Made by a program: the position numbers and the translations under genes. A stretch of DNA of 64,000 nt from Gammaproteobacteria bacterium (GTDB taxonomy: Bacteria > Pseudomonadota > Gammaproteobacteria > SZUA-152): positions 1 through 64,000 of the forward strand of contig JAOUJW010000005.1 of NCBI GenBank assembly GCA_029882975.1, in the 5' to 3' direction. The stretch's first letter is position 1, and every line of letters begins with the position of its first letter. Shown here piece by piece: positions 9,401-36,437 of this stretch. The notes beneath the pieces were generated by a model. The model was given only the letters and a program-made list of their open reading frames with translations, was not told the DNA's origin and ran no database searches.

Positions 9401-12400
9401 ATTCTGATGCCTTCCCCAATGATCCTACAGAGTGGTTGGATACGGATGGTGACGGTATTGGGAACAATGCAGACACAGACGATGATGGCGACGGGGTACC
9501 TGATGTTATTGATTTATTTCCGTTGAATGGCAACGAATCAGTTGACACTGACGGGGATGGTGTTGGTGATAACGGTGACAATTGTCCAACTATTGTGAAT
9601 CCCGACCAATTGGATGCCAATAGCAACCGTGTTGGAGATATATGTGAATCTGCTCCAGTAGCCGCGGATGACTCATACACCGTGTATCAGGATATCGCTC
9701 TAACGCTGGACGTACAGAGCAATGATGTTGATGCTGATGGTGACAGTTTGACTGTCAGTTTGGCTACCGCACCTGCCAATGGCGTGGTTAACATCACAAA
9801 CTCTGTTGTGAGCTATACACCCAATACCGGTGTTACCGGGGCAGACAGTTTTACCTATACAGTCAGCGACCGGACTGCGACCGGTACTTCTACGGCAACC
9901 GTAAATATCAATATAGTAGCCACTGCAACACTGTTGAGTAATGTAGTATTTAATGACGCTCAACTGCAGACGTGCGTAAATGCTTCCGGAGCTACCTATG
10001 CCAACGAGGTATTTGCCATTAGCCCGACAAGTCATTGTTTTAACGTGACTGACTTTACCGGTATTGAACAATTGGTTAATCTGGCAACGGCTAACTTTTA
10101 CAACGGTGTACTTACCGGGACGCTTACTCCTTTCTCGTCTCTAGCCCGGCTTTCTAAGCTTAGTTTGCGTTATAAGTCTATATCCGATATTTCTGCACTC
10201 TCCGGAATGACCCAATTACAGGATTTAGGTTTAACCGGCAATGCAATAAGCGATATTAGTGTACTCGCCACTTTAACTGGGGTGAAACGGTTGGAAATAG
10301 GATCAAACCCGGTAGCGGATTTCTCCTCATTGGCGACTATGACTCAGCTAGAGTCACTGTTTATAGACGGTACGGGTTTTACGGGTAATCAGGGAGCTTT
10401 TTTCCAAAATCTAAGCGAACTTAAAATTTTAAGCATGACAAGCAATAAAATCACGAATTTGGCTTTTCTTGCAACCAACACCAAACTGGAAAATATTAAT
10501 TTGTACAATAATTGGTTGGTAGGCCTTTCAGACTTACCGGCGCTGCCATTGTTAAAGCGTTTAGATGTAAGAAATAATTCCTTGTTTTCGCTCGGAGGAA
10601 TGCCCTTGCTACCGGAGTTGGACTACATGGATTTACGCAGCAACCGGTTGAATGATTTCTCCGGTATGCCCTTGCATCCCAAGCTGACGTCGATGCGAAT
10701 TGATTCCAACGGTTTTGTGGATCTGACCGGCCTTTCAGGGCTTCCGGCACTGGTCAGCTTGTACGGAGACAGCAACACGTATGACTCCTTGAGCGGGATA
10801 TCCAATATGCCACGCTTGAATACTCTGTCATTGCAATATGGATCCATTGGGACCATGACCGGTATGGCCAATTTACCCGTACTGAGTACTCTCAGGATGC
10901 ATGGCACGGTGGTTATTGATGGCTCTATCAGCCCATTGTCTACAATGAACTCACTGCAATACTTAAGCATGGATGGTTCCGGTATCAGAGATATTTCTCC
11001 GTTGTCGAATCTTCCGTATGCAAACAATATTGACTTGAACAACAATTTCATTACAGACGTATCCGTGGTTGCGAACTGGACCAGCGCCTCTTATGTGTAT
11101 TTGTCCAACAACGATATTCGAACGGGTGTTGGTAGTTTGGTCGGTTTGAATCAGATTTACACATTGGATCTATCCGGTAACATCAATATTCCGTGTACTG
11201 ATCTGGATGCTTTGACCGCTGCAAATATTCGCCATACGGCACCGGCTCAGTGTTTTATCGATACGGATTCTGACGGAGTTGCAGACCATACTGATGCGTT
11301 TCCGAACGATCCTACCGAGTGGTTGGATACGGACGGTGATGGTATCGGAAATAACGCAGATACAGATGATGACGGTGATGGCGTTCTGGACGTTGTGGAC
11401 GCACTTCCGCTGGATCCCAGCGAGTCGTTAGACAGCGATGCTGATGGAGTGGGTGATAATGCTGATAACTGTCCTGTAATTGCCAACCCTGATCAGTTGG
11501 ATCGAAACAATAATAACATTGGTGATGTTTGTGAAAACGCACCAGTGGCGCAAGATGATAGCTTTGTAGTCTATGCCGGTATTCCCCTGAGCATGAACCT
11601 TACTCTCAATGATTCGGATCTTGATGGGGATAGCTTACGAGTTGTCGCAGTTGGCACTCCCACCAGTGGTTCTGTAGGTATCAACAATGGTCGGGTTCTA
11701 TATATTCCTCCGACTGATTTGAGTATTACCAATGATACCTTTACCTACACTATCAGCGACGGAAGTTCCCTGACGGCCACCGCCGTGGTGACTCTGACCA
11801 TTGACCCCAATCCGGTCTTAATATCGTCACTTGGTATAACCGATGCTAATCTTCTCAACTGCGTCAACCAGCCCAATCCGGACCCGGTATACGCCAATGA
11901 AGTATTGACATTGAGTTGTTACAGCATAACTGACATTACCGGGATAGGTGGACTTGTAAACCTTCGCACTCTATCCTTGAGTTCCACTCCGTTGGTATCC
12001 GGGCTTGCTCCGTTAGCCGGGCTCAGAAGTTTGGAGACCTTGTCGCTTGCATCCATGCAGTTGACGGATGTCAGTGAACTGGCGTCTCTTACCGGATTGA
12101 AATCGTTGATTTTGTACAATAATCCCATTACAAACCACAGCGTTTTGGCGCCTCTGGTTAACCTGGAATATTTGGACTTGTCCTATAATGGACTGGGAGC
12201 GAATATTGCGAATCTACCTGTATTCAGTTCACTGAAGTCGTTAAATTTGACGGGCAATACGTTGACCGATATTAGCGTTTTGTACGATTCGAATACCGGA
12301 CTCGGATTTACACAACTGCAACGCTTAAACTTGCGTTCCAATCAATTGGCGAGCATTAGCTCGTTAAGCGGATTGACTGCATTACAGGAGTTGGATTTAA

Positions 12401-21703: not shown

Positions 21704-22468
21704 TTATGCACTATTCGTTTTGGTGGAATATTTACCAATATTTGTAAACATTGGACTATTTACATAGTGTAGTTTGTTGCACTGCAGTAGTAGGTAGTCT
21801 CCCAGCAACCAGTCTATGGGTGTGTGGTTGTGGTGCCGATAGACGAATTGGATAAATGGCAATAGATGCTGCATTTGAAACAGCAGGCCATGAAACCCTC
21901 CCATAAGGTAGGTAGGGCCGGGGGACCAGAAGCGACGTTTCTCGAACTTTAACGCGATCCAGTGGGGATGTTTTTGTGCCACTTTGGCTCGGGCACGGTT
22001 CAGGTTTTGAATACTGAATGTGTTGGAATTGACGACGATATCGTCTTCAAGGTGAAGGTAATACTTCCAATGGCCATAGTGATGGTGAACAGATTGCATC
22101 AGGTGCGCGGTGTCCGTGGCGAGTTTCGATTTCCAGTTTCCGTACTCAAGCTTATTCTGAGTAGGGGCGTTTTCAGGCTTTGCTATTGTGGGAGGATTGG
22201 CAATTTGGAGAAAACCCTCTTCCATCGCTTTGCAAAAATGCTGTGACAACCGGGTGAAAACCCGGTCTCGTGTCTGAGCGTCGGTGTCCGCCAGCAAGAC
22301 GATCAAGCGATGATGACGACGTTGTTCCGCCGATAGGCATTGTATCAGGCTGTCAATTGAACGGACAAAATACTGTTGTTCCAGCTTGTTACGCCACTTT
22401 ACCGGCATTCCTATCGCCAACGGAGTTTCCTCTACGTTTAGGGGAGATTTTTCAGGGAATAATCTCAA
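21704..22468 (-). CDS. GT54 (MGAT4/GnT-IV)-like N-acetylglucosaminyltransferase
   Basis: 254 residues aligning along most of their length with the catalytic domain of animal MGAT4, which adds a beta-1,4 GlcNAc branch to the alpha-1,3 arm of N-glycans. The run begins AIGMPV near residue 18, then SIDSLIQCL, LIVLLADTD, ANPP, YYLHLEDDI (EDD at 141-143, metal/UDP-sugar site), LMGGFHGLLFQ and the diagnostic PIDWLL (217-222), ending MFTNIGKYST. There is no signal peptide or membrane helix, unlike the Golgi enzyme, so it should act in the cytoplasm. The start is a TTG with AGAGGA 7-8 bp upstream; no ATG exists before the upstream in-frame stop. It diverges from the ALG11-like gene. Exact linkage is inferred. 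Confidence 0.8.
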   Translation of the reverse strand: MRLFPEKSPLNVEETPLAIGMPVKWRNKLEQQYFVRSIDSLIQCLSAEQRRHHRLIVLLADTDAQTRDRVFTRLSQHFCKAMEEGFLQIANPPTIAKPENAPTQNKLEYGNWKSKLATDTAHLMQSVHHHYGHWKYYLHLEDDIVVNSNTFSIQNLNRARAKVAQKHPHWIALKFEKRRFWSPGPTYLMGGFHGLLFQMQHLLPFIQFVYRHHNHTPIDWLLGDYLLLQCNKLHYVNSPMFTNIGKYSTKTNSA

Positions 22469-22562: not shown

Positions 22563-23795
22563 ATGCTAAAACCAAAGATTTTGTTACTGCACTACGACTT
22601 GAATCCACACGGAGGTGGCAACGGGGTGGCTGTCTGGACGCTACAAGCGCTGGTGGAACGTTATGATGTGGGGGTGTTGCTTTGGCAGGTTCCGGACTGG
22701 GATTCCGTGAATCGCTTTTTCGGTACCCATGTTGATGAAAACCACGTTTCGGTGTACCAGTTACCTGTCAGCACCCGGCGTTGGATAGGGCGCATTCCAG
22801 GCAATCATGCACTGTTGGGATTGAGCGCCATGGCACGTTATAGCCGTCGCTTGCAGAAAAAACACGGATACCATTTAGTGATAAGCACTGCGAATGAAGT
22901 GGACTTTGGCTCACGCGGGATTCAATATATACATTTTCCCGCGGCTCAATTACCTAGGCCTGATCTGGAGTTGCGCTGGTATCATCAGATTTGGGGAGTA
23001 ATGTCGGCCTACCGAATGCTCTGTCGATGGGTAGAGGGCCGCCGTACTGAACGGGTTAGGGGAAATCTCACCTTATGCAATTCGGATTATATTGGCCGTA
23101 TGTTTCAGTCGCTGTATAAGAGCACAGTGCAAACTCTGTATCCACCGGTCCATGGCAATTTTCCTCATATTCCTTGGGATCAAAGACAAAACGGCTTTGT
23201 GTGTATTAGTCGCATATCCCCGGAAAAGGCGTTAGTGGAGATTATTACAACAGTTGAGCAAGTCCGCGATAAGGGTTGGGATATTAAACTGCATGTTGTG
23301 GGAACGGCAGGTCCTGGTAAATACGCGGACTCCATACGTGGCTTGGTCCACAAACACACCAGTTGGATTCGTTTACACGAAGGATTGACACGTCAAGAAC
23401 TGGTTCAACTTGTGGCAACACAGCGTTATGGAATCCATGCTATGCGAGGGGAGCATTTTGGTATGGCGGTGGCTGAAATGCAGAGAGCAGGATGTATTAC
23501 CTTTGCCCATAATAGTGGTGGACCTGTGGAAATATTGGCAGGTGACGAGCGTTTACTTTACGATGATCCAGCGCAGGCCGTGGTAAAAATAGACGCCGTT
23601 TTATCGGATGATGCCAGTCAACGGATGTTGAATCAGCAGGCATTGGAACGCGGCGGACATTTCAGCGCTGATTCTTTTATGTGTGGTATGCGAGCGGCCG
23701 TACAACAATGTCTGCGCGAGGAGAATAAACCGATGGCAATAAACACGGCACCTACAGATACAGCGCAGAGCATAGAGCCCGACGTAAACGTTTAG
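22563..23795 (+). CDS. GT4 glycosyltransferase, ALG11-like mannosyltransferase
   Basis: A 410-residue GT-B fold enzyme. The N-terminal HYDLNPHGGGNGVAVWTLQAL recalls ALG11, which adds alpha-1,2 mannose to the lipid-linked core, and the C-terminal half has the ALG11-type GIHAMRGEHFGMAVAEMQ and AHNSGGPVEIL (nucleotide-sugar site). ISRISPEKAL is the usual GT4 interdomain segment. No membrane anchor is evident, although eukaryotic ALG11 has one. A Ser/Thr/Pro-rich tail of about 25 residues is not part of the fold. It overlaps the convergent sulfotransferase gene by 4 bp. The GT4 call is firm; ALG11 specificity is inferred from motifs and neighbours. Confidence 0.78.
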   Translation: MLKPKILLLHYDLNPHGGGNGVAVWTLQALVERYDVGVLLWQVPDWDSVNRFFGTHVDENHVSVYQLPVSTRRWIGRIPGNHALLGLSAMARYSRRLQKKHGYHLVISTANEVDFGSRGIQYIHFPAAQLPRPDLELRWYHQIWGVMSAYRMLCRWVEGRRTERVRGNLTLCNSDYIGRMFQSLYKSTVQTLYPPVHGNFPHIPWDQRQNGFVCISRISPEKALVEIITTVEQVRDKGWDIKLHVVGTAGPGKYADSIRGLVHKHTSWIRLHEGLTRQELVQLVATQRYGIHAMRGEHFGMAVAEMQRAGCITFAHNSGGPVEILAGDERLLYDDPAQAVVKIDAVLSDDASQRMLNQQALERGGHFSADSFMCGMRAAVQQCLREENKPMAINTAPTDTAQSIEPDVNV

Positions 23796-24547
23796 CTGGT
23801 GGACCGCATTCCGGGAGTAAACCCCATAGAGGAGGTTGAAACTGCACCAGACAGTGAGTCTATTTCGTAACCGATACTGTTTTCAAGGCTCCAATCCAGT
23901 TCCTGCTCAATATAGTTAACATCCTTTGGGGTGATTGGGGTATAGACTCTGGGACGGTACAACATTCGAAATCCTTTTTCTCCTTTATAGCCGAATTCGT
24001 TGTGGAAAAACCACGTGGTTTTAATTCCGAATTGATGCGCTATCTTGTTTAGAATAGCCTTAGGGTTGTCTTTCAAATCTTCATATCGCACATAAACTAT
24101 GTTTTTAACAGTTTCTTGCAAGGCTTGCCAATAATGGATTTTGGCGGTTCGCATTTGTATAACATTGTCAAATCGTTCACCTGTCTTGGGGTCTCTTTCA
24201 AACATCATCTCCGAGCCGTATACTGCATTCGACGGTAAGTTTTCCCAGTGTTCGTCCCAGATGCAGTGCCATTGGGCCCGAATAAATGCAGAGAAGTTCG
24301 CTTGGCGCAGCGCCGGCGTAGTGTGCCACGGTTGACGGTGTAAACTCCGCAGCCAGTCAAAAGGACCTCGGTATATCACTATAAAAAGGCAATGGTCGGA
24401 GTTCGTCAGATCTTTATCTGTAAAAAAGTGCTTCCATCCAAAATCCCATTGCACAGGCGTTGTTGGGTAGTTTTTTTGAAGCAAATGTTCCAAGTAATTG
24501 GTACCGGAACACCGTTCACCGTAAATCTGAATACTTTGGATACTCAT
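23792..24547 (-). CDS. Sulfotransferase family protein (PAPS-dependent)
   Basis: 251 residues. GERCSGTNYLEHLL at residues 10-23 is the P-loop-like 5'-phosphosulfate-binding motif, and IVIYRGPFDWLRSLHRQPW near 57-75 holds the Arg and Ser of the 3'-phosphate-binding motif. VRYEDLKDNPKAIL is the typical mid-domain motif of carbohydrate sulfotransferases. There is no signal peptide, so it is cytoplasmic. It is the last gene of a leftward operon (MurG-like, ABC transporter, this gene) with 3-4 bp gaps. In this setting it probably sulfates the lipid-linked glycan. The acceptor is unknown. Confidence 0.8.
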   Translation of the reverse strand: MSIQSIQIYGERCSGTNYLEHLLQKNYPTTPVQWDFGWKHFFTDKDLTNSDHCLFIVIYRGPFDWLRSLHRQPWHTTPALRQANFSAFIRAQWHCIWDEHWENLPSNAVYGSEMMFERDPKTGERFDNVIQMRTAKIHYWQALQETVKNIVYVRYEDLKDNPKAILNKIAHQFGIKTTWFFHNEFGYKGEKGFRMLYRPRVYTPITPKDVNYIEQELDWSLENSIGYEIDSLSGAVSTSSMGFTPGMRSTS

Positions 24548-24550
24548 ATA

Positions 24551-26323
24551 TTATTCCAACTCAGCAATGCGTCGAAACTGTTCGTTGCGCTGATTCAATT
24601 CTTCAAACCCACCGGCGTCCCGTAACTTCCCTTCGCTGAAAAACAGTACACGGTCGGTATGACGTACGGTTCGCAGGCGATGGGCTACCATGATAATTGT
24701 TTTTTCGCCATGCAAGGCATCCACGGCATCAATGAGAGATTGTTCGGTTTTATAATCCAACGAAGCCGTGGCCTCATCAAAAATCAATATCTGCGGATCA
24801 TGGTATAGCGCTCGGGCAATGGCTATGCGTTGACGTTGTCCACCGGAAAGACGTATACCCTGTTCCCCAACCGGCGTATCAACCCCTTGTGGTAATTGAG
24901 ATATGAACTCAAGAAGTTGTGCGGATTCCAAAGCGCGGTGCAGTTTTAGTTCATCGATTTGTTTTTCACCCAGAGCCACGTTACGGGCGATAGATTCGTC
25001 CAGGAGATAAACCGATTGCGGTACATAGCCGATGAGTTTTTGCCACAACTCCGGGTTTAAGGGCTTTCCGTCAATACAGATCTGGCCGCTGCTCGGGTTA
25101 ACCAGGCCCAACAGGAGATCTATAAATGTACTTTTTCCAGCCCCGGTGGGTCCGACGATGCCTATGGTTTCTCCTTTCTTGATGCTCACATTAATGTCTC
25201 GTAGAGCCTGGCGATTGCCCTCGGGGTAGGAGAAGCACACGTGCTGAAACTCCAGTCCCTGAGACAATTCAATGCGATGTTGGTTTATCGGCAGCTTTGA
25301 ACCTGTGGATTGTTGGAGTTGGTCCCAGTCCGGTTGTATGTTTTCCAATGCGGCAGACCCAAATTTAATGTTGTTCCAATGGTATACAATTATGTGAAAA
25401 GAGGGGAGCAAACGAAATCCGGCATAAGTAAACAAACCCAGGAGGGGTATGAGTTCGTATCTGTTGGAAAACCACAATTCATGTGAAATTATGATAGTCA
25501 TGACGCCAAGGATAAAGACGGTTTCAACGGTTAATCTGGGTAAGACCGACAGTACGCCTCTGCGCGTGGTCACTCTATCCAATTGTGATTGCTGTTTTAT
25601 GTAACGTTGAATGAAAAATTCTTCCCTTTTTAGTATTTTTATTTCTTTTATCCCACGCAGGCTTTGCCTTAAGGTTTGCAGCAGTGTTTTACCATACTCA
25701 TGGGTTTGTTTTCCCCAGAGACTGTGGTATTTTTGCGTCATAATCAGAATGATACCCATCATCGCAGCAATGCTGACACCTGCCAGGAGGGTTACCATCG
25801 GTTCAGAATACAGCAGTACCGCAAGTACCCCCATGCAAACCAGGATTTCAGTACACATCGCTGTGGCAGACGCTAATACATTTCGACTGATGGCATTCGT
25901 CGAGTTTTGAATATTGCGTATTAATTCAGAAGAATTACGGGTGTAATGAAGACTGTAAGGCCCATTGAGGTAATGCGCCAACAGTTGACTGGCCATAGTC
26001 AGTGCTGATTGCTGTGTACAGCGTTCGCGTAGAAAGCTTTCATAGAGCCGCAAACTGTTTTTGACGAGGTATATTACTCCAATCAGGATACACAAGGTAA
26101 CGACAATCGATCCACTTTGTCGGTCTGTTGATGGGAAGAAATCAAAGGGCAAAGTGATTTGGCTTTGGTCCGGTAGTGTAATCGTACGTATCAAATAAAA
26201 AACGCTGATAACGGCAATGACTTCCAATACTGCTGCAGTTACGGCCAGTGGAATGAGTGTTAACCAGCTCTTTTTCAGCTTTCGATCAAGCAAAGACAAT
26301 GCTTGTATAATGGTGCTAAGCAT
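24551..26323 (-). CDS. ABC transporter (fused membrane and ATPase domains), PglK/MsbA-like lipid-oligosaccharide flippase
   Basis: A 590-residue half-transporter. Residues 1-320 carry about six membrane helices. The ATPase half has Walker A GPTGAGKST near residue 391, signature LSGGQRQRIAIARAL near 491-505, Walker B ILIFDEATASLD and the switch histidine in MVAHRL. The closest functional analogue by layout is PglK, which flips the lipid-linked heptasaccharide in Campylobacter N-glycosylation. It is packed between the MurG-like and sulfotransferase genes, and the only oligosaccharyltransferase in the window lies 6 kb away, which fits export of lipid-linked glycan. Substrate is inferred from context. 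Confidence 0.82.
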   Translation of the reverse strand: MLSTIIQALSLLDRKLKKSWLTLIPLAVTAAVLEVIAVISVFYLIRTITLPDQSQITLPFDFFPSTDRQSGSIVVTLCILIGVIYLVKNSLRLYESFLRERCTQQSALTMASQLLAHYLNGPYSLHYTRNSSELIRNIQNSTNAISRNVLASATAMCTEILVCMGVLAVLLYSEPMVTLLAGVSIAAMMGIILIMTQKYHSLWGKQTHEYGKTLLQTLRQSLRGIKEIKILKREEFFIQRYIKQQSQLDRVTTRRGVLSVLPRLTVETVFILGVMTIIISHELWFSNRYELIPLLGLFTYAGFRLLPSFHIIVYHWNNIKFGSAALENIQPDWDQLQQSTGSKLPINQHRIELSQGLEFQHVCFSYPEGNRQALRDINVSIKKGETIGIVGPTGAGKSTFIDLLLGLVNPSSGQICIDGKPLNPELWQKLIGYVPQSVYLLDESIARNVALGEKQIDELKLHRALESAQLLEFISQLPQGVDTPVGEQGIRLSGGQRQRIAIARALYHDPQILIFDEATASLDYKTEQSLIDAVDALHGEKTIIMVAHRLRTVRHTDRVLFFSEGKLRDAGGFEELNQRNEQFRRIAELE

Positions 26324-26327
26324 AATA

Positions 26328-27476
26328 TCAGGCGCGATTTAACAACTGCTCACAATCTGTCACCAGGTTCTTGGCAGCGTCAGGGCGGTGAATTTCATGA
26401 ATGAGTTTGATATGTTCCATTCGTGCACTTGTATCGCGGAGTAAATCGGCAATTTGTTGGGCCAACGGTTCGGCCTGCCAATGTTGTTCACTGGTCCAAT
26501 GCAGTGATACCGGGTTAGTCAGTGCATGCTGAGAGATTCTTTGCTTGAGCGCTTCAAAATAGGCCGCAACATTTGCTGTTTGGTGATCGTCAGAAGCCTC
26601 CTTCAATGGGACAATCAAACACGGTACACCGGTTGCCGCCAATTCGGCTAAAGTAATGGCACCTGCACAACAAATGACGAAATCCGCTTCGTAGTAAGCT
26701 GCGGTGATGTCATCAATAAATTCGGTGATCTCCGCGTCGATTCCAAGGGCCAAATACGCTCTTTGAATCGCCTGGTTCTCCAGTTGGCCGGTCTGATGTT
26801 TGACTCGCAGTTTCACACCTTGCCGGGTCAGATGAGCTGCCAGATCCGGGCCGTGTCGGTTCAGGAATGATGAACCCAACGAGCCGCCGACAATGAGCAA
26901 ATTTCTGGATTGCTTAAGCGTATTGCACTGTGGGACGAAGTTTAAGAACTCCAGACGCAAGGGGATACCGGTGACGACTGTATTTTGTTCCAGTTGTTCT
27001 TGCGCCTCGGGCCAACCCAGATATATTCGTTTGCTGAATCGAGCCAATAAGCGATTTGCTCGCCCGGGAATAGCATTGGCTTCGTGCAATACGCAGGTAA
27101 TACGCATGGAATATGCGGCAAGTATCAAGGCAACCGAGCTGTAGCCGCCACAGCCAATAACTACATCGGGTTGTAAGGATTTAAGCAATCGTTTTGCTAA
27201 TACGAATCCTTTTAGAATAGACCACACGGCACGAAATTTGCCCTTCAATCCGGTACGCATCCATGGTGCACTGGGCAGATTGACGCTTTGCCAGTTTTCC
27301 CGTTGCAAAATATGCTCGGGTAATTGACCGGGTTCAGTGACGAAGACTATGGACGCTGTAGGAACTTCGTTACGGTATTGTTGGGCTATGGCTATTCCCG
27401 TGTTGATGTGACCTGCCGTGCCTCCTGCCGCTATAGCAATGGTGCGTTGAATGGGATTGGAGGCAAATTTTGTCAA
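26328..27476 (-). CDS. MurG-like GT28 N-acetylglucosaminyltransferase
   Basis: A 382-residue enzyme with the MurG hallmarks: AGGTAGHI near the N-terminus, VVIGCGGYSS, HEANAIPGRANRLL, GGSLGSSFLN, and the UDP-GlcNAc pocket CCAGAITLAELAATG...PLKEASDDHQTANA-like segment. MurG makes lipid II; ALG13/ALG14 are the split eukaryotic relatives that add the second GlcNAc to GlcNAc-PP-dolichol. Outside any cell-division cluster and in an operon with a flippase and a sulfotransferase, it is more likely a paralogue that makes GlcNAc2-PP-lipid. The only workable start is a TTG at 27476, with AGAGA about 8 bp upstream. Role inferred. Confidence 0.82.
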   Translation of the reverse strand: MTKFASNPIQRTIAIAAGGTAGHINTGIAIAQQYRNEVPTASIVFVTEPGQLPEHILQRENWQSVNLPSAPWMRTGLKGKFRAVWSILKGFVLAKRLLKSLQPDVVIGCGGYSSVALILAAYSMRITCVLHEANAIPGRANRLLARFSKRIYLGWPEAQEQLEQNTVVTGIPLRLEFLNFVPQCNTLKQSRNLLIVGGSLGSSFLNRHGPDLAAHLTRQGVKLRVKHQTGQLENQAIQRAYLALGIDAEITEFIDDITAAYYEADFVICCAGAITLAELAATGVPCLIVPLKEASDDHQTANVAAYFEALKQRISQHALTNPVSLHWTSEQHWQAEPLAQQIADLLRDTSARMEHIKLIHEIHRPDAAKNLVTDCEQLLNRA

Positions 27477-27649: not shown

Positions 27650-28666
27650 ATGCCTAATGACTGGTCCCGCACAGCCGTCCTTGTCTTTGCTTGCAATCGG
27701 CCTGCTTATTTACAGCGGAGTTTGAACAGTATTTTTTCCCATATGGCAGATCATGCACTACCTGTATTTGTATCTCAGGATGGCACGCATAAAGGGGTCA
27801 GCAAAGTCATTCAATCCTGGTCCCCCAATGTGTATCATTTACAGCACATGGGCAGGAAACAATACACCTTATCTCGTCACGTCAGGCCTGGATATTTTCA
27901 CATCGCATTACACTATAAATGGGCTTTAGGGCGTGTATTTGGCGCCGGCTACCGGAACGTGATTGTATTGGAAGACGATCTGGAAATAGCATCGGATTTT
28001 TATGACTATTTCAGAGCCTGTCTGCCGCTACTGGAGCAAGACCCAAGCATTTGGACCATATCCGCCTGGAATGATTTTGGCTATGGAGCCTACGCGCGAG
28101 ACCCTAAGCGCCTGTATCGTTCTGACTTTTTTCCTGGCTTGGGTTGGCTGATGACCGATGCACTATGGCGGGAACTGGGGGAGTCGTGGCCGGACGGTTT
28201 TTGGGATGAATGGATGCGAAAGCCCAAACAACGACAGGGCCGAGTGGCAATACGTCCCGAGGTGTCTCGAACCTATACCTTTGGGAAAAAGGGTGTCAGT
28301 GGTGGCCAGTATTTTAACAAATTTCTACGCAATATTCGTCTCAACCCCAAAGCCGTGGATTTCAAGGCCATGGACCTGAGCTATCTACTTAAAGATAAAT
28401 ACGACACTGAGTTTCAGCAGGCTGTTTCCAATGCTGACCGGGTGAAAGACCCGGCAGGCTGTATAAAGGATGCCGCCGCAGATCAAAAACTGGTGTATCG
28501 CAATGCCGATGAGTTCAAGCGTATTGCCAAACAATTTGGGCTGATGTGGGATTTTTGGTCGGATGTACCGCGAACCGCATACCAAGGGGTCGTGGTGGTA
28601 CCGAATGGAAATTATGATGTGTTTATTGTGCCTGATAATTTTGAGGCGAGTATTCCGAAAAGCTAA
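27650..28666 (+). CDS. GT13 (GnT-I/MGAT1)-like N-acetylglucosaminyltransferase
   Basis: 338 residues collinear with the catalytic domain of animal GnT-I, which adds the first beta-1,2 GlcNAc antenna to N-glycans in the Golgi. Counterparts of the structurally defined residues are present: Arg17 (CNRP), Asp44 (VSQDG), the metal-binding Glu-Asp-Asp at 108-110 (LEDDLEIASDF), the catalytic-base Asp186 (GFWDEWMR), and Val216-Ser217 (KKGVSGGQYF). Shared stretches include SIWTISAWND, DFFPGLGWLM, RQGRVAIRPEVSRT and PRTAYQGVV. It has no transmembrane anchor or stem, so it should act in the cytoplasm. It diverges from the MurG-like operon, and its 3' end overlaps the convergent GT2 gene by 44 bp. Family certain; the acceptor in this organism is inferred. 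Confidence 0.92.
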   Translation: MPNDWSRTAVLVFACNRPAYLQRSLNSIFSHMADHALPVFVSQDGTHKGVSKVIQSWSPNVYHLQHMGRKQYTLSRHVRPGYFHIALHYKWALGRVFGAGYRNVIVLEDDLEIASDFYDYFRACLPLLEQDPSIWTISAWNDFGYGAYARDPKRLYRSDFFPGLGWLMTDALWRELGESWPDGFWDEWMRKPKQRQGRVAIRPEVSRTYTFGKKGVSGGQYFNKFLRNIRLNPKAVDFKAMDLSYLLKDKYDTEFQQAVSNADRVKDPAGCIKDAAADQKLVYRNADEFKRIAKQFGLMWDFWSDVPRTAYQGVVVVPNGNYDVFIVPDNFEASIPKS

Positions 28667-29561
28667 CTCCAAGAGACCCCAAACACAGCCCCAGGCCCTG
28701 CATAGCGCTCATCAGCGCCAGAACACGCTCAGTGCGGGAGCGGGCGATTGCTATTCGGAAAATCGCTTTCAAAAGCGTCAGGCAACCGCGGACGATTTTT
28801 CGCGGTACTATGCTTACCCCGTATAGTTTTTTGTCAATTCCGGCTCGGGCGCAGCCTCCGCGGAAGCTCCGTTTAAGATTCCAACTTAAGGTCAACTTGT
28901 ATGGTTGGACATCCTCATTCACCACAGCATGTTGTGCATACACAATACGAAATCCCAACTTTTTGGCTTGAGCAGAGTAGTCACTGTCCTCGCCCCCGCT
29001 GAGGGCAAATTGTGGGTCAAACAGCAACTGACGGAATACATCGGCGTGAATCATTGAGTTTCCGGTATCCAATTCATAGCATTCATCACCATTTTGATAG
29101 TCTGTAGTTTCAAGAGCCGCATAGGACCAGGCCGGAGCATCTTGGGGAAAAAGCTTGTTGATTTTACCTGTAATCAGAAAAGCTTTATGACGCTGTTGAA
29201 TCTGCATTAGCTGTAATATCCAATCCGGTTGTACCGTTTCATCGTCATCCAGGAATATCAGCCATTGGGCATTGGTCTGCAAACAATGCGAAATCGCACG
29301 ATTGCGTGCGTAAGACAATCCGCGCTGGGGTTCCAATACATATTTGGCGGGGAACGGTAGGTGTGGTCGACATTCTGTAAAAATGTCGATTGCCGGTGTT
29401 TCTTCAGCGTTGTCAACCAGCAAAAGTTCCATTTGAATTTCTTTCGGCGGAACAAGTTTGCTCAAAGAGTCCAACGCAGCTTTGAGTAATACCGGGCGCG
29501 AGCATGTAAGAACTGCTATAACCAGCTTTGATTGGTTTGTGGAAGTTCGGGAGGGAGTCAT
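28623..29561 (-). CDS. GT2 family glycosyltransferase
   Basis: About 312 residues. VIAVLTCSRPVLLKAALDSL opens the GT-A fold, LEPQRGLSYARNRAI and WLIFLDDDE (DXD metal site) follow, then an ALSGGEDSDYS acceptor-side motif common in GT2 enzymes. I place the start at the ATG just after the ALG2-like stop codon (29561). An in-frame TTG at 29576 would overlap that gene by 14 bp and is possible. It is third in the ALG1-ALG2-GT2 operon. Sugar and linkage are not readable; the locus suggests an extra residue on the same glycan. Confidence 0.83.
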   Translation of the reverse strand: MTPSRTSTNQSKLVIAVLTCSRPVLLKAALDSLSKLVPPKEIQMELLLVDNAEETPAIDIFTECRPHLPFPAKYVLEPQRGLSYARNRAISHCLQTNAQWLIFLDDDETVQPDWILQLMQIQQRHKAFLITGKINKLFPQDAPAWSYAALETTDYQNGDECYELDTGNSMIHADVFRQLLFDPQFALSGGEDSDYSAQAKKLGFRIVYAQHAVVNEDVQPYKLTLSWNLKRSFRGGCARAGIDKKLYGVSIVPRKIVRGCLTLLKAIFRIAIARSRTERVLALMSAMQGLGLCLGSLGVSFSEYSPQNYQAQ

Positions 29562-29562
29562 T

Positions 29563-30777
29563 CTAGCTTTGTACAAGTTTCTGCAACATGGCGTTCAGGT
29601 GTACGCCAAATTTCTTGAGGCTGAAAAAGTTTTGCACGCGTTGTCTCCCGGCCATTCCTTCTTTATGTGCCTGGTGCGGATTCATCACATACTGAGCCAT
29701 AACGGAGGCAAAAACTTGCGGGTCGGGTGGGCATAAGTGCCCTGTTTGTTGCTCCACAATGGTTTCCAAAGGACCGCCACTATTGACCGCTATCACGGGT
29801 CGAGCCGAAGCCATTGCCTCCAGCGGTACAATACCGAAGTGTTCGTTTATTGGTGTATAGATGACGGCTAAGCACTGTTGCAGTAGCTGCAATTTTTCCG
29901 CTTCGCTACAGGGTTGCAGTAGATGTATGTGGTCTGTCAGTTTTAGACTAAGCACCAGTTGTTGCAGATGCTTCAGGGTTTGTTGTTGTTCGCTTAAGCG
30001 CGGGTCGCAACTACCGGCCAAAATCAAGCGCACGGTGGAGAATGTTTTCGAAGGCAATATTTCTCTCAGTTGAGCCATTGCTTTTACCGCCAATGGAAGG
30101 TTTTTTTTAGGATCGTACCGATTGATTGACAAAAATATTAATCCTTGAGTGTGATCCGCGTTCACAGGTTCAATGGAGAGATAGGGTTCCAGTTTTATAC
30201 CTGGATACAGAACCTCCGGGGTTTTCAAGCCGGGAAAGTACTCTTGTACGGTTGTTGCGGTGAACCGGCTGTTTGCCACCACTTTATGGGCGGCTCGTAG
30301 TCCTTTGGCTTCCAGGGTATCAATGGGGTGACGGTAACATTGGTAGAGGGGGGTTCGCGCCGGGGTCAATAGTTTATCGGGAAAATGGCAGTAAAATAAA
30401 ATCTTGCTGTTACACAATCGACGCAATAAGGGCAAAGGATGCGCTGTCAAGTCGCAAATTACAATGTCCGGCGGCTCCGGTAGACGGGATATTGCCCATG
30501 CTATGTAGAGCATGCGGACAATGGCACAGGGTGCCCGTAGACGTTGCCATAGACTGATGGGTAAAAAACTCCCGATTATGCGGATGTCCAATGATCCGTC
30601 GCGTGTTTCGGAAAAACTACGATGGGCGTCATGCTGTGCCGTATAAATACACACCTTGTGCCCCGCCTGTTGCAAGCAGATCGCTGCGTCCACAATCAGC
30701 CGTTCTGCTCCGCCGATACCGAGATCCGGATGCATAAAGGCGATGTTTAAAGGTTTAGCAGCGGTCGAGGAAGTCAT
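29563..30777 (-). CDS. ALG2-like GDP-mannose mannosyltransferase (GT4)
   Basis: 404 residues from the ATG that overlaps the upstream stop as ATGA. The longer frame to 30837 would run into the ALG1-like gene. Similarity to human ALG2, which adds the alpha-1,3 and alpha-1,6 mannoses of the core, runs end to end: FMHPDLGIGGAERLIVDAA, ILFYCHFPDKLLT, NSRFTATTVQEYF, LSINRYDPKKNLPLA, YTPINEHFGIVPLEAM and AVNSGGPLETI. The EX7E region that binds the donor is intact (HFGIVPLE). No membrane anchor is obvious. Co-translation with the ALG1-like gene fits consecutive steps in the pathway. Confidence 0.9.
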   Translation of the reverse strand: MTSSTAAKPLNIAFMHPDLGIGGAERLIVDAAICLQQAGHKVCIYTAQHDAHRSFSETRDGSLDIRIIGSFLPISLWQRLRAPCAIVRMLYIAWAISRLPEPPDIVICDLTAHPLPLLRRLCNSKILFYCHFPDKLLTPARTPLYQCYRHPIDTLEAKGLRAAHKVVANSRFTATTVQEYFPGLKTPEVLYPGIKLEPYLSIEPVNADHTQGLIFLSINRYDPKKNLPLAVKAMAQLREILPSKTFSTVRLILAGSCDPRLSEQQQTLKHLQQLVLSLKLTDHIHLLQPCSEAEKLQLLQQCLAVIYTPINEHFGIVPLEAMASARPVIAVNSGGPLETIVEQQTGHLCPPDPQVFASVMAQYVMNPHQAHKEGMAGRQRVQNFFSLKKFGVHLNAMLQKLVQS

Positions 30778-32018
30778 AGACGTGCCTGTACCGCATTGTC
30801 GCCGGCGTGATAAAGCTGGGGCAGTAATTGTTGCCACTGTTGCTCCCAGGTTACGGTAGTACGGGCAATCACTCTTTCTTGCATAGTCTGTAGCAGCTCA
30901 ACGGATTGGGGAGTCGCCAGTTGCAGAAGTTTTTGTGCCAATTGGCCCGGCGTTGTAAACAGAAAGCCGTTTATTCCATCCTGAATTTGTTCCTGCAGGC
31001 AAGGGCCGTAGTCCAGCGCACACACGACCAGCCCGGCGCCCTGCATATCAACAATTTTCATCGGCAGATCCACTTTGGAAGTGGAACGATGCAGACTTAG
31101 ACCCAGATGAGCGCATCCTACCAATTTAGGGTAGTCCGCAGCATCCAACCAAGGGGTAAATACTTGTATGTGGTTTAGATTAAGCCCGGTAAGTATAGGG
31201 CTCCAATGTGCTTTTGTTGGACCGTCACCCGTGAGCAGGAAACTGAAATTCAAACAAGACTGCTCGGCTATTTGTTCCAATAAGGGAAGGGCCTGTAATA
31301 GTAATTCAAAGTCATCATCGCTGCTCCAACTGCTGGGGCAGATAATATTGAAACTGTTTTTAAAATATTTCGGATACAGTGCACGAGTTTGAGCCAGTTG
31401 GGTAGGGGAGAGTGGAAAAAACATAGGACCGGGGCGGTCATGAAACACTTGGACCTGGGGCAAGCCCCACCGTTGTTGTAATTCCTGTTTCATACAAACA
31501 CTCACACAAAGATTGGTATGTGCCTTGGGTCCCATACGTTTTTCATAATATTTGACTAACTTAACTATCCAATGATCCTCGCCAAGACGCTGTGCCAGTA
31601 TGCTGAAACTGTAATTGTGCCAATCTAACACCAGTCGGGAGGATTTCAACTTGGCTACGGCGCGGCATATGCTGAATGCGGGTAGGGATGGTGGACATTG
31701 CATCAGTATCACATCCGCTTTTGGACTGCGTAGAAGGGCAATCAGCAAAGCGATACTTTGCCAAATCAATTGCAGGGCGGATCTTAAGCCGGTTCGTTTC
31801 ATTGTGAGATACCGGTCCAAAGGACGGATGAGGTACTGTTGTATATCGGAATGAATCTCCACCTGCGGATAAGGCGCGTGTCCGGCTTCACCGATTAAAC
31901 AGACCTTGGCCAGGTCTGCCAAAGCCAAAGCGTGTAACTGCATACGGGGGCTGCGGCCAAGATCGCCAAGCACCACAATCGTTATCGCGGGTTTTACCGT
32001 TTTTTTCAAATTTGGCAT
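30774..32018 (-). CDS. ALG1-like beta-1,4-mannosyltransferase (GT33)
   Basis: 414 residues aligning with eukaryotic ALG1, which adds the beta-mannose to GlcNAc2-PP-dolichol. Diagnostic stretches are VLGDLGRSPRMQLHALAL (residues 16-33), MQCPPSLPAFSICR, LVLDWHNYSFSI, KYYEKRMG...NLCVSVCMKQEL, SSWSSDDDFELLLQAL, and the donor-site run IQVFTPWLDAADYPKLVGCA then DLPMKIVDMQGAGL. The usual eukaryotic N-terminal membrane helix is absent or weak; residues 80-95 are hydrophobic and may contact the membrane, as in ALG1. First gene of a leftward operon, diverging from the oligosaccharyltransferase. A rare find in bacteria; family call strong. Confidence 0.9.
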   Translation of the reverse strand: MPNLKKTVKPAITIVVLGDLGRSPRMQLHALALADLAKVCLIGEAGHAPYPQVEIHSDIQQYLIRPLDRYLTMKRTGLRSALQLIWQSIALLIALLRSPKADVILMQCPPSLPAFSICRAVAKLKSSRLVLDWHNYSFSILAQRLGEDHWIVKLVKYYEKRMGPKAHTNLCVSVCMKQELQQRWGLPQVQVFHDRPGPMFFPLSPTQLAQTRALYPKYFKNSFNIICPSSWSSDDDFELLLQALPLLEQIAEQSCLNFSFLLTGDGPTKAHWSPILTGLNLNHIQVFTPWLDAADYPKLVGCAHLGLSLHRSTSKVDLPMKIVDMQGAGLVVCALDYGPCLQEQIQDGINGFLFTTPGQLAQKLLQLATPQSVELLQTMQERVIARTTVTWEQQWQQLLPQLYHAGDNAVQARL

Positions 32019-32174
32019 GGGTATCCCAGCTGGATCTGCTCAAAATGTAAGTGTCTTTGCTTTAAGTTGAATCAGCTAATGCAACTTTAGTACCTCCAAA
32101 CCGGGAAATACAGCGGGTTCTATCAGAACTGCTACACTTGCTTGGGTGTACCACAGACTCACTACGCGGATCGA

Positions 32175-34415
32175 ATGAAAAGTAAAAACGTTTGGTTGGA
32201 TTGGAGTGTATTGCTGTTGTTATTCTTGTTGTCATGCGCACTCAAGATATGGCAACCCTATTCGCAAGTCTTTACGGATAGCGGTGTGTTGTTTGTGGGA
32301 GCCGACTCCTGGTACCACATGCGTCGCATGGATTTTCTGTTGGCAAACTTTCCTTCGATTTTAGTACATGATCCCTATGCGTTCTTTCCTGGAGGGCAGA
32401 CGGTTGGAGTCGCCCCTCTATTCGACTGGTTGGTGGTCAGTATCGCTGTGTTGTTGGGCGCGTCTGCGGATGTTGGGGTGCTGGAAACCACGGCGGCTTT
32501 TGCGCCACCTGTCATGGGCTCCTTGGTCATTGTCCCACTGTATCTGGCAACAAAGACTTTGTTCAACCGGCAGATTGCCCTATTGGCGGCTGCTCTGTTG
32601 GCCGTGCAATCGGGACCGTATTTGTTAAGAACCACGCTGGGATTTGTGGACCACCATGCTGCGGAAGTGTTGTTCAGTTGTATCACCATGGCATTGTTGT
32701 TCCTGGCAAGCACAAGTACCGAAGCTGTTGCGAAGACCCGCCGATTCAGTCTGGCTGCTGGTATTGCTTTGGGGGCCTATTGTTTGAGCTGGAGCGGTGC
32801 ATCATTGATAGTCGCCGTAATTTCCGTATGGGTGTGTGTGCAGGCTTGTGTAGGGTTTGAGAAACCAAAATACCAATTGGATCTGATCTCAATAGTCGGC
32901 CCATGTGCTGTGGTGGCTTTGCTGCTGCTACTGCCATTTTGGGAGTTTTTGCCCCGACGAAACATTCATTTAACCGCCCTTATCCTTATGGTTTGTTTAC
33001 CATGGCTTATGCAGCTGAACGCACGGTTTGCAAGCAAAACTAACAGTCGGCGGTGGGTGTTTTATGGTTTGATTAGCTTTCAGGTTATCGTCGCGCTGAG
33101 CTTGTTTAAATGGCTTTATCCGGGGCTTTGGCACTCCGTCCTTACCGATATGGGGCGTTTCAGTGGTCAGGGTATCGGTAACACGGTCGCCGAGAGTACA
33201 CCACTGTTAACCATGTCCGGACAATGGTCCTTGTGGCCGGTCATAGACGGGTTCGGGTGGCTGTTTTTTTTGGGGTTAGCGGGCTTTGGCATCGTATTGT
33301 TGAGTATGTGGAAGGAATACCGTGCCGATAGAAGTTTGCTGCTGATATGGTGCTTTGCCATGTCGATTGTCGCATTGGGACAAAATCGATTTGGATACTA
33401 TCTGGCGGTTAACTTGTCTATTTTAGGGGCAATCGTGTGTTTGCAGATTCTGGCACTGGGGTTTTCCGGTTTGCGTCAACAAGTAAGCGAAACGGAACGG
33501 GGTATGAATGTGCAGATGTATCGACTCATGGCTGTGTTTATCGTCGTGGGTATCGCGTTTCTGCCACCGCTACAGTCGGCACTTGCCATGACGCGAACCA
33601 TGGCTGTACCGACACAAACATGGGTTACTGCATTGAACTGGTTACGGAATAACACACCCGAACCATTTGGGGATAATACCGTCTATACAGATCCGGTTAA
33701 ATTGGCGCACGCTTCAAAACACGAAGCTGCCTATGGCGTACTGGCTTGGTGGGATTATGGATATTGGATAACCCGCATAGGCCGACGTGTGCCAAACGCA
33801 AATCCGACCCAAAGTGGCGCAGGTAAAGTCGCGGGATTTTTATTGGCTGTCGATCCACAACAGGGGGAAAAACTGCTCCGTACAATGGGGAGCCGTTATG
33901 TGATCGTGGACAGCAGTCTAATGTTTTATATCAATCAACCCACGAAGTTTCCGGCGATAGTCGCTTGGGCGGGTCGGGAAACCCGGGAATTTTTTGAGTG
34001 GTACTATCAAGTAGGATCAGACGGAAGTTCCACACCGGTTTTGGGGATCAAACCGAATTACTATAAAACCATGTTGGCCCGTTTGTTCTATTTTTCAGCG
34101 AAACAGGTCTCACCGGAATCCAGTTGGGTGTATCAGTACGAGTGGCATACCGGGCAATCGGGCGAAAAATACAAAAGGTTGATAAAAAGAAGCGAATTTT
34201 CCTCTTATTCGGATGCGGAAGCCTACATTAAAGCTCATCCGGACCGGGCATTGGATTTGGTCTGTACGACACCAAGCAAAACCTGTATTCCAATAAAAGC
34301 AATGAAAAACTTTTCAGAGGTTTATCGTTCAGGATTTAAAGTAAAGGACGATAAGGGTAGGGTGAAACATTCACTTGGGTTGCGCATTTTCAGCACAGGA
34401 CAGGTACAGGAGTAA
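32175..34415 (+). CDS. STT3/AglB/PglB family oligosaccharyltransferase
   Basis: About 746 residues; the ATG at 32175 is preferred over an in-frame TTG at 32142. The N-terminal half is a series of about 12-13 membrane helices. Catalytic motifs of the family are present: GADSWYHMRR near residue 42 (first metal-binding loop), GFVDHHAAE near 158, and WWDYGYWI near 524 in the periplasmic domain, the WWDYG sequon-reading motif. The enzyme moves a lipid-linked oligosaccharide onto Asn of exported proteins. Length and loop style look closer to archaeal AglB and deltaproteobacterial PglB than to Campylobacter PglB. The next gene, 99 bp downstream, encodes an exported sequon-rich protein. Confidence 0.92.
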   Translation: MKSKNVWLDWSVLLLLFLLSCALKIWQPYSQVFTDSGVLFVGADSWYHMRRMDFLLANFPSILVHDPYAFFPGGQTVGVAPLFDWLVVSIAVLLGASADVGVLETTAAFAPPVMGSLVIVPLYLATKTLFNRQIALLAAALLAVQSGPYLLRTTLGFVDHHAAEVLFSCITMALLFLASTSTEAVAKTRRFSLAAGIALGAYCLSWSGASLIVAVISVWVCVQACVGFEKPKYQLDLISIVGPCAVVALLLLLPFWEFLPRRNIHLTALILMVCLPWLMQLNARFASKTNSRRWVFYGLISFQVIVALSLFKWLYPGLWHSVLTDMGRFSGQGIGNTVAESTPLLTMSGQWSLWPVIDGFGWLFFLGLAGFGIVLLSMWKEYRADRSLLLIWCFAMSIVALGQNRFGYYLAVNLSILGAIVCLQILALGFSGLRQQVSETERGMNVQMYRLMAVFIVVGIAFLPPLQSALAMTRTMAVPTQTWVTALNWLRNNTPEPFGDNTVYTDPVKLAHASKHEAAYGVLAWWDYGYWITRIGRRVPNANPTQSGAGKVAGFLLAVDPQQGEKLLRTMGSRYVIVDSSLMFYINQPTKFPAIVAWAGRETREFFEWYYQVGSDGSSTPVLGIKPNYYKTMLARLFYFSAKQVSPESSWVYQYEWHTGQSGEKYKRLIKRSEFSSYSDAEAYIKAHPDRALDLVCTTPSKTCIPIKAMKNFSEVYRSGFKVKDDKGRVKHSLGLRIFSTGQVQE

Positions 34416-34514: not shown

Positions 34515-36437
34515 ATGCTATTAGATCGCACCGTGAAAGAATTGAGCTTGATTTTGCTCAGCATTGTTACTGTCATGTCCATTGTACTAATTCAAACCCG
34601 GGAAGCCGTAGGGTTGTTGGCTATGAACACAACCGTGAGTTTGTGGACAGAGGCATACAATACCACCAATCCCACCGCATCAAATGTAGTTCTTGATGGT
34701 GCCCCCGTAAGTTTTCGAATAGATGCTGACTATGCCGCTGATGTGGAGGTTTTAACGGCGAACTTAACCGCCAAGTCAGCAGGCGCGGGTCTGAGTCCCA
34801 TGTTTAATACAACGACACTTAACATTACTCCACCTAATGTGTCTTCGATGTTGTCGTACCAAACAGCATTCGGTAGTGCCGGCAGTAATCGCCATATCGT
34901 ACTGAATATTGATAGCGGCAATACGATGATAAGTGAAACCGCACGAAGCACTTCAATTTTGGTGAAGGGGGTGGGTTTTACTTTAGGCGGAACCATTCCC
35001 TATACCCAAACCGTTCTGATTCAAGGTGGGAAAGCCACCAGTACCGTTGTCAATACGGCAGGCGTGGTAGCTATGCATGGCCACGTGGTGTCGCAAAATA
35101 CAAACGATACGATCAGTTATGACTGGAGTGGCAGTCACACGAGTATCACGGGCGCAGTCGTGGGCGGTACGAGCTCCGCCATTTTCAGTTTTAACCCGTC
35201 GGGTTTGGCTGCAGGATTTTACCCGATTCAATTAATGGTAACTGTTAACGACGGCGCCGGTGGAATCACCAATAAATCTGTGCAGCGGTTGATCCAGGTG
35301 GTTTCGAGTCCTCCCGTATTAAGCGCCGTCGCAGATACTGATTCCGATGGAATTGTTGACAATGTAGATGGCTATGGTGACCTGGATCAGGACGGTGTGC
35401 GAGATTACATGGAAAGCGATACGTTGATGAGTAATATTCATCTCATGCACACCCAGAATTTTGCTTATGCCATGGAGACAGCAACAAACTTAGCATTGCG
35501 TCTGGGTTCCGCCGCTTTTGTCACAGGAAATTCCACCCCGCTGATCAGTACTCAAAATTTTGCGGATTTTGGTGACGGCCTAGGCGGTGCAGCCAGTAGC
35601 GATACCTGGACTGCCAGTGGCGGAATCTACGATGTGGTAATTGGGAATCTACCCAGTGCCGGTGCGTCTGTCAGTGTGGCTGTTCCGCTGACCGTGGCCA
35701 TACCCGCCAATTCCGCGGTTCGTGTTTATGCCGGAGGAAGTTGGGGTAGTTTCAGCGAAGATGCCAACAATGTGCTGACTTCGGCTGCCAATGTGCTTGG
35801 TAGCTGTCCTCTGGCTTTGACTTATCAAGCGGGTTTGACCAGTGGGGATCACTGTGTGAAACTCACGGTACAAGACGGTGGCCTCAATGACCGCGATGGT
35901 GTTACCAACGGTGAAATTGCATTAAGTTTCGCTGTTGCACAAACTCCTCCTGCTAGCGGACAAGCACCGACTGCGCCGGTACTGGTTTCTCCTGCCGATG
36001 GTGCTACCGGAATTGATCCAGCTTCCGTCGTTTTTGAATGGGAACCGGCAAGCGATGCCGATGGAGACAGTTTAAGCTACCAGTTGCATATATGCAGCGA
36101 CGCAAACTTCACTGCTTGTACCAGCGTAAATGTAGCGTCTAATAGCAACGGGATTCTGCTCGCAGGACTGGGTGGTTTCGGATTGCTGCTGTTCTTCCCG
36201 GTGGGATTCACACGCAGACAATTGTGGTTGAAAACCATTCTGTCCGTCATTGTTCTGGCTTCCTTTAATTTGGTTGCGTGCGGTGGTGGCAGTGGTGGTG
36301 GCGGACAAGCCAATACCAATATTGCGCATACGGAGTCCGGTTTAGCGTCGACAACCACATACTACTGGAAAGTGACTGTTAGCGATGGAAACGGTAACAC
36401 GACGGAGAGTGTCATCCGAAGTTTCACCACCCAGTAA
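34515..36437 (+). CDS. Exported choice-of-anchor U-type protein with an internal sorting-signal/lipobox segment in a split FnIII domain
   Basis: 640 residues. Residues 5-30 are a hydrophobic signal sequence. A sequon-rich N-terminal region follows, then a PKD-like domain (about 165-265), a short Asp-rich calcium motif (SDGIVDNVDGYGDLDQDGV), and a region ending DGGLNDRDGVTNGEI typical of choice-of-anchor U proteins. The C-terminal fibronectin-III domain (QLHICSDANFTACT...TTTYYWKVTVSDGNG) is interrupted at residues 546-589 by a Gly/Leu/Phe helix, a TRRQLWLK basic patch, a second helix and the lipobox LVAC, then a Gly tract. Eleven Asn-X-Ser/Thr sequons are present. It follows the oligosaccharyltransferase and ends at a strong terminator. 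Function unknown; candidate glycoprotein. Confidence 0.8.
   Translation: MLLDRTVKELSLILLSIVTVMSIVLIQTREAVGLLAMNTTVSLWTEAYNTTNPTASNVVLDGAPVSFRIDADYAADVEVLTANLTAKSAGAGLSPMFNTTTLNITPPNVSSMLSYQTAFGSAGSNRHIVLNIDSGNTMISETARSTSILVKGVGFTLGGTIPYTQTVLIQGGKATSTVVNTAGVVAMHGHVVSQNTNDTISYDWSGSHTSITGAVVGGTSSAIFSFNPSGLAAGFYPIQLMVTVNDGAGGITNKSVQRLIQVVSSPPVLSAVADTDSDGIVDNVDGYGDLDQDGVRDYMESDTLMSNIHLMHTQNFAYAMETATNLALRLGSAAFVTGNSTPLISTQNFADFGDGLGGAASSDTWTASGGIYDVVIGNLPSAGASVSVAVPLTVAIPANSAVRVYAGGSWGSFSEDANNVLTSAANVLGSCPLALTYQAGLTSGDHCVKLTVQDGGLNDRDGVTNGEIALSFAVAQTPPASGQAPTAPVLVSPADGATGIDPASVVFEWEPASDADGDSLSYQLHICSDANFTACTSVNVASNSNGILLAGLGGFGLLLFFPVGFTRRQLWLKTILSVIVLASFNLVACGGGSGGGGQANTNIAHTESGLASTTTYYWKVTVSDGNGNTTESVIRSFTTQ

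Follow-up and report, generated by a model that had tools for sequence, protein, structure and literature searches.

Introduction

In animals, the further antennae of N-glycans need a first GlcNAc supplied by GnT-I (PMC4202792), while GnT-IV makes the β1,4-linked GlcNAc branch on the α1,3-Man arm (PMC11328876). The families concerned, GT13 and GT54, form together with GT16 a single clade of GT-A enzymes (PMC7185993). In its available text, a 2025 study describes GT54 as restricted to Metazoa (PMC12616123); the accessible part of a 2014 review states that bacterial equivalents of the MGAT enzymes had not been found (PMC4202792); and a survey that included 52 bacteria reports, as excerpted, PF03071 (GnT-I family) genes in animals and plants only (PMC5225481). 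For Alg1, the closest prokaryotic relatives could not be determined, according to the available portion of PMC4973528.

Here we describe a cluster of ten genes of common theme, about 13 kb long (21.7-34.4 kb), within a 64,000-nucleotide stretch of a gammaproteobacterial contig (JAOUJW010000005.1; hereafter the window). It holds candidate counterparts of the eukaryotic ER/Golgi pathway (Alg13/14, Alg1, Alg2, Alg11, STT3, GnT-I and GnT-IV), but differs from it in occupying one chromosome segment, in having no recognised trimming enzymes and in that addition of its antennae would precede the transfer of the glycan to protein. With archaeal AglB N-glycosylation it shares an oligosaccharyltransferase (OST) of archaeal type, which scores above the cut-off of the model TIGR04154, whereas its assembly enzymes resemble Alg1, Alg2 and GnT-I rather than archaeal Agl proteins. 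Like Campylobacter pgl, it is a bacterial cluster of an OST, several glycosyltransferases and a PglK-like ABC protein; unlike pgl, its OST has no PglB structure among its PDB matches. The Campylobacter glycan, moreover, differs from the GlcNAc2-Man core with GlcNAc antennae that the glycosyltransferases of the cluster would predict. A literature search covering bacterial GT54, GnT-I, Alg1, Alg2 and complex-type N-glycans returned no description of such a bacterial cluster.

Two of its products bear on glycan branching. The GT13 protein is a clear homologue of GnT-I (MGAT1), but is bacterial, lacks a Golgi anchor and would act on a lipid-linked rather than a protein-linked substrate. The GT54 protein is like MGAT4A-D (GnT-IV; CAZy GT54, PF04666) in its catalytic domain (residues 16-230), its EDD and the order of its conserved blocks. 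It differs in being bacterial and 254 aa long, in lacking the transmembrane anchor and the lectin domain (CBM94), in carrying Asn for the motif-5 His, in its altered motifs 1, 2 and 4, and probably in using a lipid-linked glycan as its substrate within the cytoplasm. MGAT4D likewise has no lectin domain (PMC12616123, available text).

Results

A short, divergent GT54 homologue in a gammaproteobacterium

An initial annotation of the DNA had read the open reading frame at 21704..22468 (reverse strand) as a GT54 (MGAT4-like) enzyme with an unusual TTG start and a Shine-Dalgarno site. The frame was confirmed: the TTG is the earliest start codon downstream of the preceding stop, and AGAGGA lies 7 bases 5' of it. 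When the profile search suggested by the annotation was run, the protein scored 90.8 bits against Pfam PF04666 (MGAT4_cons, the GT54 catalytic domain), far above the cut-off of 51.5 (E = 9.7e-26), with residues 16-230 aligned to model positions 36-233. Up to E 1, Pfam gave neither a better match nor any other family, and a better fit to another GT-A family was rejected accordingly. A phmmer search of the PDB returned no match up to E 10. Across the whole genome PF04666 found one match (E 5.9e-25), and it found none in 14 control genomes; given these values, the order of motifs in the protein goes beyond chance.

The four motifs from which the annotation had argued are all present in the order it gave, LADTD (59), HLEDDI (139), GGFHGLLF (190) and PIDWLL (217). 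Their spacing agrees with MGAT4 only approximately, as 215 residues span 198 model positions; compared with the homologues from other bacteria described below, the protein also has an insert ahead of GGFHGLLF. LADTD, although present, is weak evidence, because its first D alone is common to all four bacterial proteins. The DxD motif takes the form EDD (LEDD at 140), and EDD, GFHGLLF, PIDWL and NIGKY run in GT54 motif order. Set against the strict metazoan patterns printed in PMC12616123 (available text), the protein has one of five motifs exactly, namely EDD, the remainder being partial or altered. The motif 1 pattern (GXPX2KR) is absent, with GMPVKWR in its place; that of motif 2 (FGDX6WR) is absent, with YGNWKSK nearby; and at motif 4, GFHGLLF is identical to GFIGKLF / GYIGKLY at 5/7 positions without matching the strict pattern. 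At motif 5 (HVGXH or HXGX[Y/F]) the protein reads NIGKY, with Asn replacing a His that the same text describes as highly conserved across GT54 apart from MGAT4E. By sequence comparison, then, the protein is a divergent bacterial homologue of the GT54 catalytic domain, and not an orthologue of GnT-IV.

The protein ends 24 residues past the catalytic match, which leaves no room for a lectin domain or any second Pfam domain, and its catalytic domain begins no more than 15 residues from the N terminus. In the GT13 protein of the cluster the corresponding distance is at most 8 residues. Neither protein therefore carries a Golgi-type anchor and, with catalytic domains starting so close to the N terminus, both should be cytoplasmic.

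The missing lectin domain and the lost motif-5 His would also fit a GT54 homologue without catalytic activity, whose role is to bind the GT13 enzyme and modulate it in the manner of mammalian MGAT4D (GnT1IP-L), a protein with neither lectin domain nor transfer activity according to the available text of PMC12616123. Against this, the EDD is intact, GT13 also does without the C-terminal metal-binding His (PMC7185993, as excerpted), and the other three bacterial homologues retain both EDD and the motif-5 His, so that the bacterial family looks catalytic. A purely regulatory role thus seems improbable to us.

A structure model of the protein, built from four sequences and of modest confidence (mean pLDDT 64.3, pTM 0.67), has strands and helices alternating in a GT-A-like order. 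In VIA-align 2 its first three ranks are all GnT-I (1fo9, 1fo8 and 1foa; Z 13.3, 13.1 and 13.0), with an rmsd of 3.9-4.6 over 182-184 residues, ahead of a next row at Z 11.8. Foldseek gave weak and mixed rows, mostly GT-A enzymes, with TM < 0.5. The prediction that the annotation had called for thus yielded a GT-A fold ranked closest to GnT-I, and this ranking, as far as such a model can be taken, agrees with the clade of GT13, GT16 and GT54. The model of the Parabeggiatoa homologue introduced below was poor (mean pLDDT 51.1).

The gene lies at the edge of a cluster of Alg-like, GnT-I-like and OST genes

The GT54 gene stands at one edge of the cluster and is divergent from the adjoining gene (22563..23795, forward strand), which encodes a GT4 glycosyltransferase (PF00534, 55.8 bits). 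In this and the following comparisons with yeast Alg proteins, the yeast sequences were not drawn from a database, and the matches hold if those sequences are correct. Against Alg11 the GT4 protein gave 57 bits, with 24% identity over 233 columns; because one of two control GT4 proteins from the acidobacterial locus described below also matches Alg11, at 74 bits (the other gave nothing), the label Alg11-like is a weak one. Next to it lies a gene for a sulfotransferase-like protein (23792..24547, reverse; PF00685 23.8 bits, barely over the cut-off of 22), which suggests that the glycan may be sulfated.

The gene at 24551..26323 (reverse; PF00005 and PF00664) encodes an ABC exporter and is a candidate lipid-linked-oligosaccharide flippase of the PglK/MsbA type. 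It matches the PglK structure 5c73 at E 5.5e-74 over 73-569, and the NCBIfam models for MsbA and PglK score almost alike (288 and 287 bits, both under their equivalog cut-offs). The PDB entries that score highest with it are multidrug exporters, so that the term flippase is taken from its context. At 26328..27476 (reverse) follows a MurG paralogue that scores 224.8 bits against the murG model TIGR01133, slightly under the cut-off of 250.25. Since the genome has a second MurG-like gene elsewhere, 31% identical to this one, and the score falls below the murG cut-off, the copy in the window may have another task, and we consider it a candidate chitobiose synthase in the role of Alg13/14 (for the relations of MurG and Alg13-14, see PMC8993221, available text).

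The GT13 gene (27650..28666, forward) had been described in the annotation as a neighbour of the GT54 gene; it is a true GT13 gene of the same cluster but is not adjacent, starting 5.2 kb off with four genes between. Its 338-aa product lies above the cut-off of PF03071 (364.4 bits), matches rabbit GnT-I (1fo9) at E 1.5e-83 with 135/308 aligned residues identical (43.8%), and retains the EDD and FWD of the rabbit enzyme in alignment. The GnT-I family also matches the Sulfolobus acidocaldarius control genome, below the curated cut-off.

Beyond a GT2 glycosyltransferase gene (28623..29576, reverse; PF00535 52.4 bits) lie two putative mannosyltransferase genes. The product of the first (29563..30837, reverse; GT4, PF00534 103.7 bits) aligns with yeast Alg2 over its full length at 236 bits (35% identity over 432 columns), its match to Alg11 (55 bits) being far lower. 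Among 72,556 plasmid records, 47 carry GT4 genes that are matched by this Alg2-like protein too; the best 10 of the 47 score 77-94 bits, and at least 80% of the protein is covered in one record only. The second product (30774..32018, reverse) aligns with Alg1, again over its full length, at 172 bits (30% over 432 columns), and matches neither Alg2 nor Alg11. Among 349 genomes of the phylum, its own included, 14 match this Alg1-like protein at E <= 0.001, the best of the other 348 being a partial match of 30.9 bits; searches with it found nothing in the PDB (up to E 0.1), in NCBIfam or in plasmids. If the yeast sequences used are correct, this would be a prokaryotic relative of Alg1.

The cluster closes with an STT3/AglB gene (32142..34415, forward; PF02516 and PF22627). 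The product scores 490.1 bits against TIGR04154, the NCBIfam model of archaeal, archaeosortase-A-associated STT3 (cut-off 450), matches Archaeoglobus AglB at about E 5e-58 and carries WWDYG at 536. Passing an archaeal STT3 model is unusual in a bacterium. Its sole plasmid relative belongs to Halocatena salina (25.1%), which we take to be a haloarchaeon. None of the genes in the cluster was identified as a lipid GlcNAc-1-P transferase.

Directly downstream of the OST, a gene for a secreted Ig/PKD-type protein (34515..36437, forward; PF22352 and PF25788) encodes 9 sequons, all NxT, with no excess over shuffled sequences (z 0.55), and none of 22 window proteins tested was enriched in sequons (z -1.62 to 1.16). 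As a glycosylation substrate the Ig/PKD-type protein is for this reason only a guess. The window also contains two giant open reading frames (3430-13578 and 55481-63547; 3382 and 2688 aa) whose sequences are repetitive and resemble surface proteins, with sequon counts at chance level.

The cluster appears to be resident in the genome

The GT54, GnT-I and OST genes are absent from the sampled relatives, including one genome of the same genus. With the genome itself counted in each sample, it alone matched PF03071 among 57 relatives, STT3 among 66, and GT54 among 96 relatives, 369 genomes of the class and 398 of the phylum; the samples of relatives, class and phylum overlap. In 299 genomes of the phylum PF03071 had 6 matches, 3 of them above a low cut-off, and the GnT-I matches outside the genome itself were short, scoring only 29.3 and 25.7 bits. 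No relative of GnT-I was found in plasmids.

So isolated a distribution might arise if a contaminating sequence or chimeric contig had carried eukaryotic DNA into a bacterial assembly. The frames are unbroken, tightly packed and in places overlapping, though; in GC content and codon usage the ten genes resemble the rest of the window; the genes flanking the cluster are ordinary bacterial ones; and the assembly has a completeness of 99.41% and a contamination of 0.34%. Contamination was rejected as the source of the cluster on these grounds. In addition, the OST is archaeal in type, and GT54 occurs in other bacteria too, once on a complete chromosome record. We accordingly give this explanation almost no weight. 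As judged by codon usage, the ten genes look resident, and the pattern fits a cluster that was acquired and then became resident, or one that was lost elsewhere.

GT54 genes occur in other bacterial lineages

Genome contigs were scanned with an alignment of the window GT54 protein and a motif row as the query. Of 89 stretches carrying the pattern, tblastn with the window GT54 protein identified three as coding for a relative; because the scan is limited to genomes containing either of two short patterns, three homologues is a minimum. They come from Candidatus Parabeggiatoa (L003:5027-5893; PF04666 184.4 bits), an Acidobacteriia MAG (L004:9962-10666; 108.5 bits) and chromosome 1 of Labrys sp. 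KNU-23 (L005:9929-10624; 116.6 bits). All three are above the PF04666 cut-off and matched no other family up to E 0.01, and the Parabeggiatoa protein spans nearly the whole model (positions 35-279 of 280). They are 26.0-27.3% identical to the window protein and 30.2, 33.5 and 58.4% identical to one another, the window protein having the lowest PF04666 score and being the most divergent of the four. Unlike it, the other three retain both EDD and the motif-5 His (HIG). Motif 2 is exact in the acidobacterial and Labrys proteins (FGDDExRV[RK]WR), and the strict patterns of motifs 1 and 4 are matched by none of the three. The family search found GT54 in a single genome (G768) among 199 of the acidobacterial phylum and a single one (G769) among 150 of the Labrys order.

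A phage or plasmid source of GT54 was rejected, as tblastn with the window protein and with the Parabeggiatoa protein found no relative in phages or plasmids. Searches of viral contigs with the single protein, with motif alignments and with four real GT54 sequences gave no confirmed relative.

The settings of these genes bear on what a bacterial GT54 protein does. Among the neighbouring proteins read, none of the three loci has an OST, and no Alg1-like gene was found in the three genomes or in the same-genus genome G001. The Parabeggiatoa gene adjoins genes for a Wzt-type ABC protein and a GT2 enzyme, the acidobacterial one ABC, GT2, GT4 and GT25 genes. Since no OST was seen nearby and no Alg1-like gene was found, and the three loci are not recognisable as ones for N-glycosylation, bacterial GT54 can serve other glycans. 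It follows that the window protein might likewise be a transferase of GT54 fold with another job, handling a different sugar or acting on exopolysaccharide, O-antigen or another arm of an N-glycan, and the deviation of its motifs 1, 2, 4 and 5 from the metazoan forms would suit such a role. On the other side, the GT13, Alg1-like, Alg2-like and OST genes of the cluster predict precisely the acceptor of GnT-IV, and we regard a different job as unlikely, though a serious contender.

Two further proteins were seen at these loci. Beside the Parabeggiatoa gene, L003:2407-4923 encodes an 838-aa protein combining GT32-type (PF04488), GT2 and Anp1 (166.6 bits) regions; the Anp1 family is known from fungal mannan synthesis. 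Near the acidobacterial gene, L004:5490-7490 encodes a fused GT4-GT2 protein whose match to Alg11 (74 bits) is weak, like that of the GT4 protein at 22563.

Discussion

Homology of the GT54 protein and of the cluster stands. On balance, we think it probable that the gene encodes a soluble, short and divergent GlcNAc-transferase of the GT54 family, acting in a chromosomal N-glycosylation pathway with a lipid-linked core of eukaryotic type. In such a pathway, the MurG paralogue would extend GlcNAc-PP-polyprenol to chitobiose, and the Alg1-like and Alg2-like enzymes, perhaps with the Alg11-like GT4 protein, would then build the trimannosyl core. The GT13 enzyme would next add a β1,2-linked GlcNAc to the α1,3-mannose, and the GT54 enzyme would place a second GlcNAc, β1,4-linked, on the same mannose. 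Assembly of the glycan, which may be sulfated, would proceed entirely on the cytoplasmic face; the PglK-like ABC protein would flip it, and the archaeal-type STT3/AglB would move it onto Asn. The antennae would thus be made on the lipid-linked glycan, ahead of transfer to protein, unlike in the Golgi. The homologies, the gene linkage and the absence of three of the genes from sampled relatives are direct observations; the substrates, linkages, order of steps and lipid carrier, as well as the activity of the GT54 enzyme, are inferred.

The annotation had held that a branch-forming GlcNAc transferase in this setting implies multi-antennary glycans. Such a role is plausible from context, and the OST, the Alg1- and Alg2-like enzymes and the candidate flippase, of which the annotation made no mention, make the claim of glycan branching much stronger. 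For the β1,4 branch specifically, we put the chances close to even, because the motif-5 His is lost, motifs 1, 2 and 4 are altered and the family score is the lowest of the four, and because no OST was seen at the other three loci, sequons are not enriched and confidence in the structure model is modest.

The existence of four bacterial homologues means that the restriction of GT54 to Metazoa, as worded in the available text of PMC12616123, does not hold. A wider reading, which we hold tentatively and place somewhat short of probable, is that this bacterium makes eukaryote-type N-glycans that are assembled on a lipid and transferred by an archaeal-type OST, and that GT54 is an older bacterial family, maybe the source of the animal enzyme. 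The same tentative reading would have the glycan consist of a trimannosyl-chitobiose core bearing GlcNAc antennae of GnT-I and GnT-IV type, assembled in the cytoplasm. Its evolutionary part draws on the four homologues being spread over several lineages at only 26-33% identity, apart from one pair at 58%, as might be expected of an older family that seeded the animal one.

With four bacterial GT54 homologues, the question of how N-glycan branching arose becomes open to direct test. A cluster with GnT-I, GT54, Alg1-like, Alg2-like and OST genes would offer a route to N-glycans of eukaryotic type that is both soluble and bacterial, and would also supply a prokaryotic Alg1-like protein.
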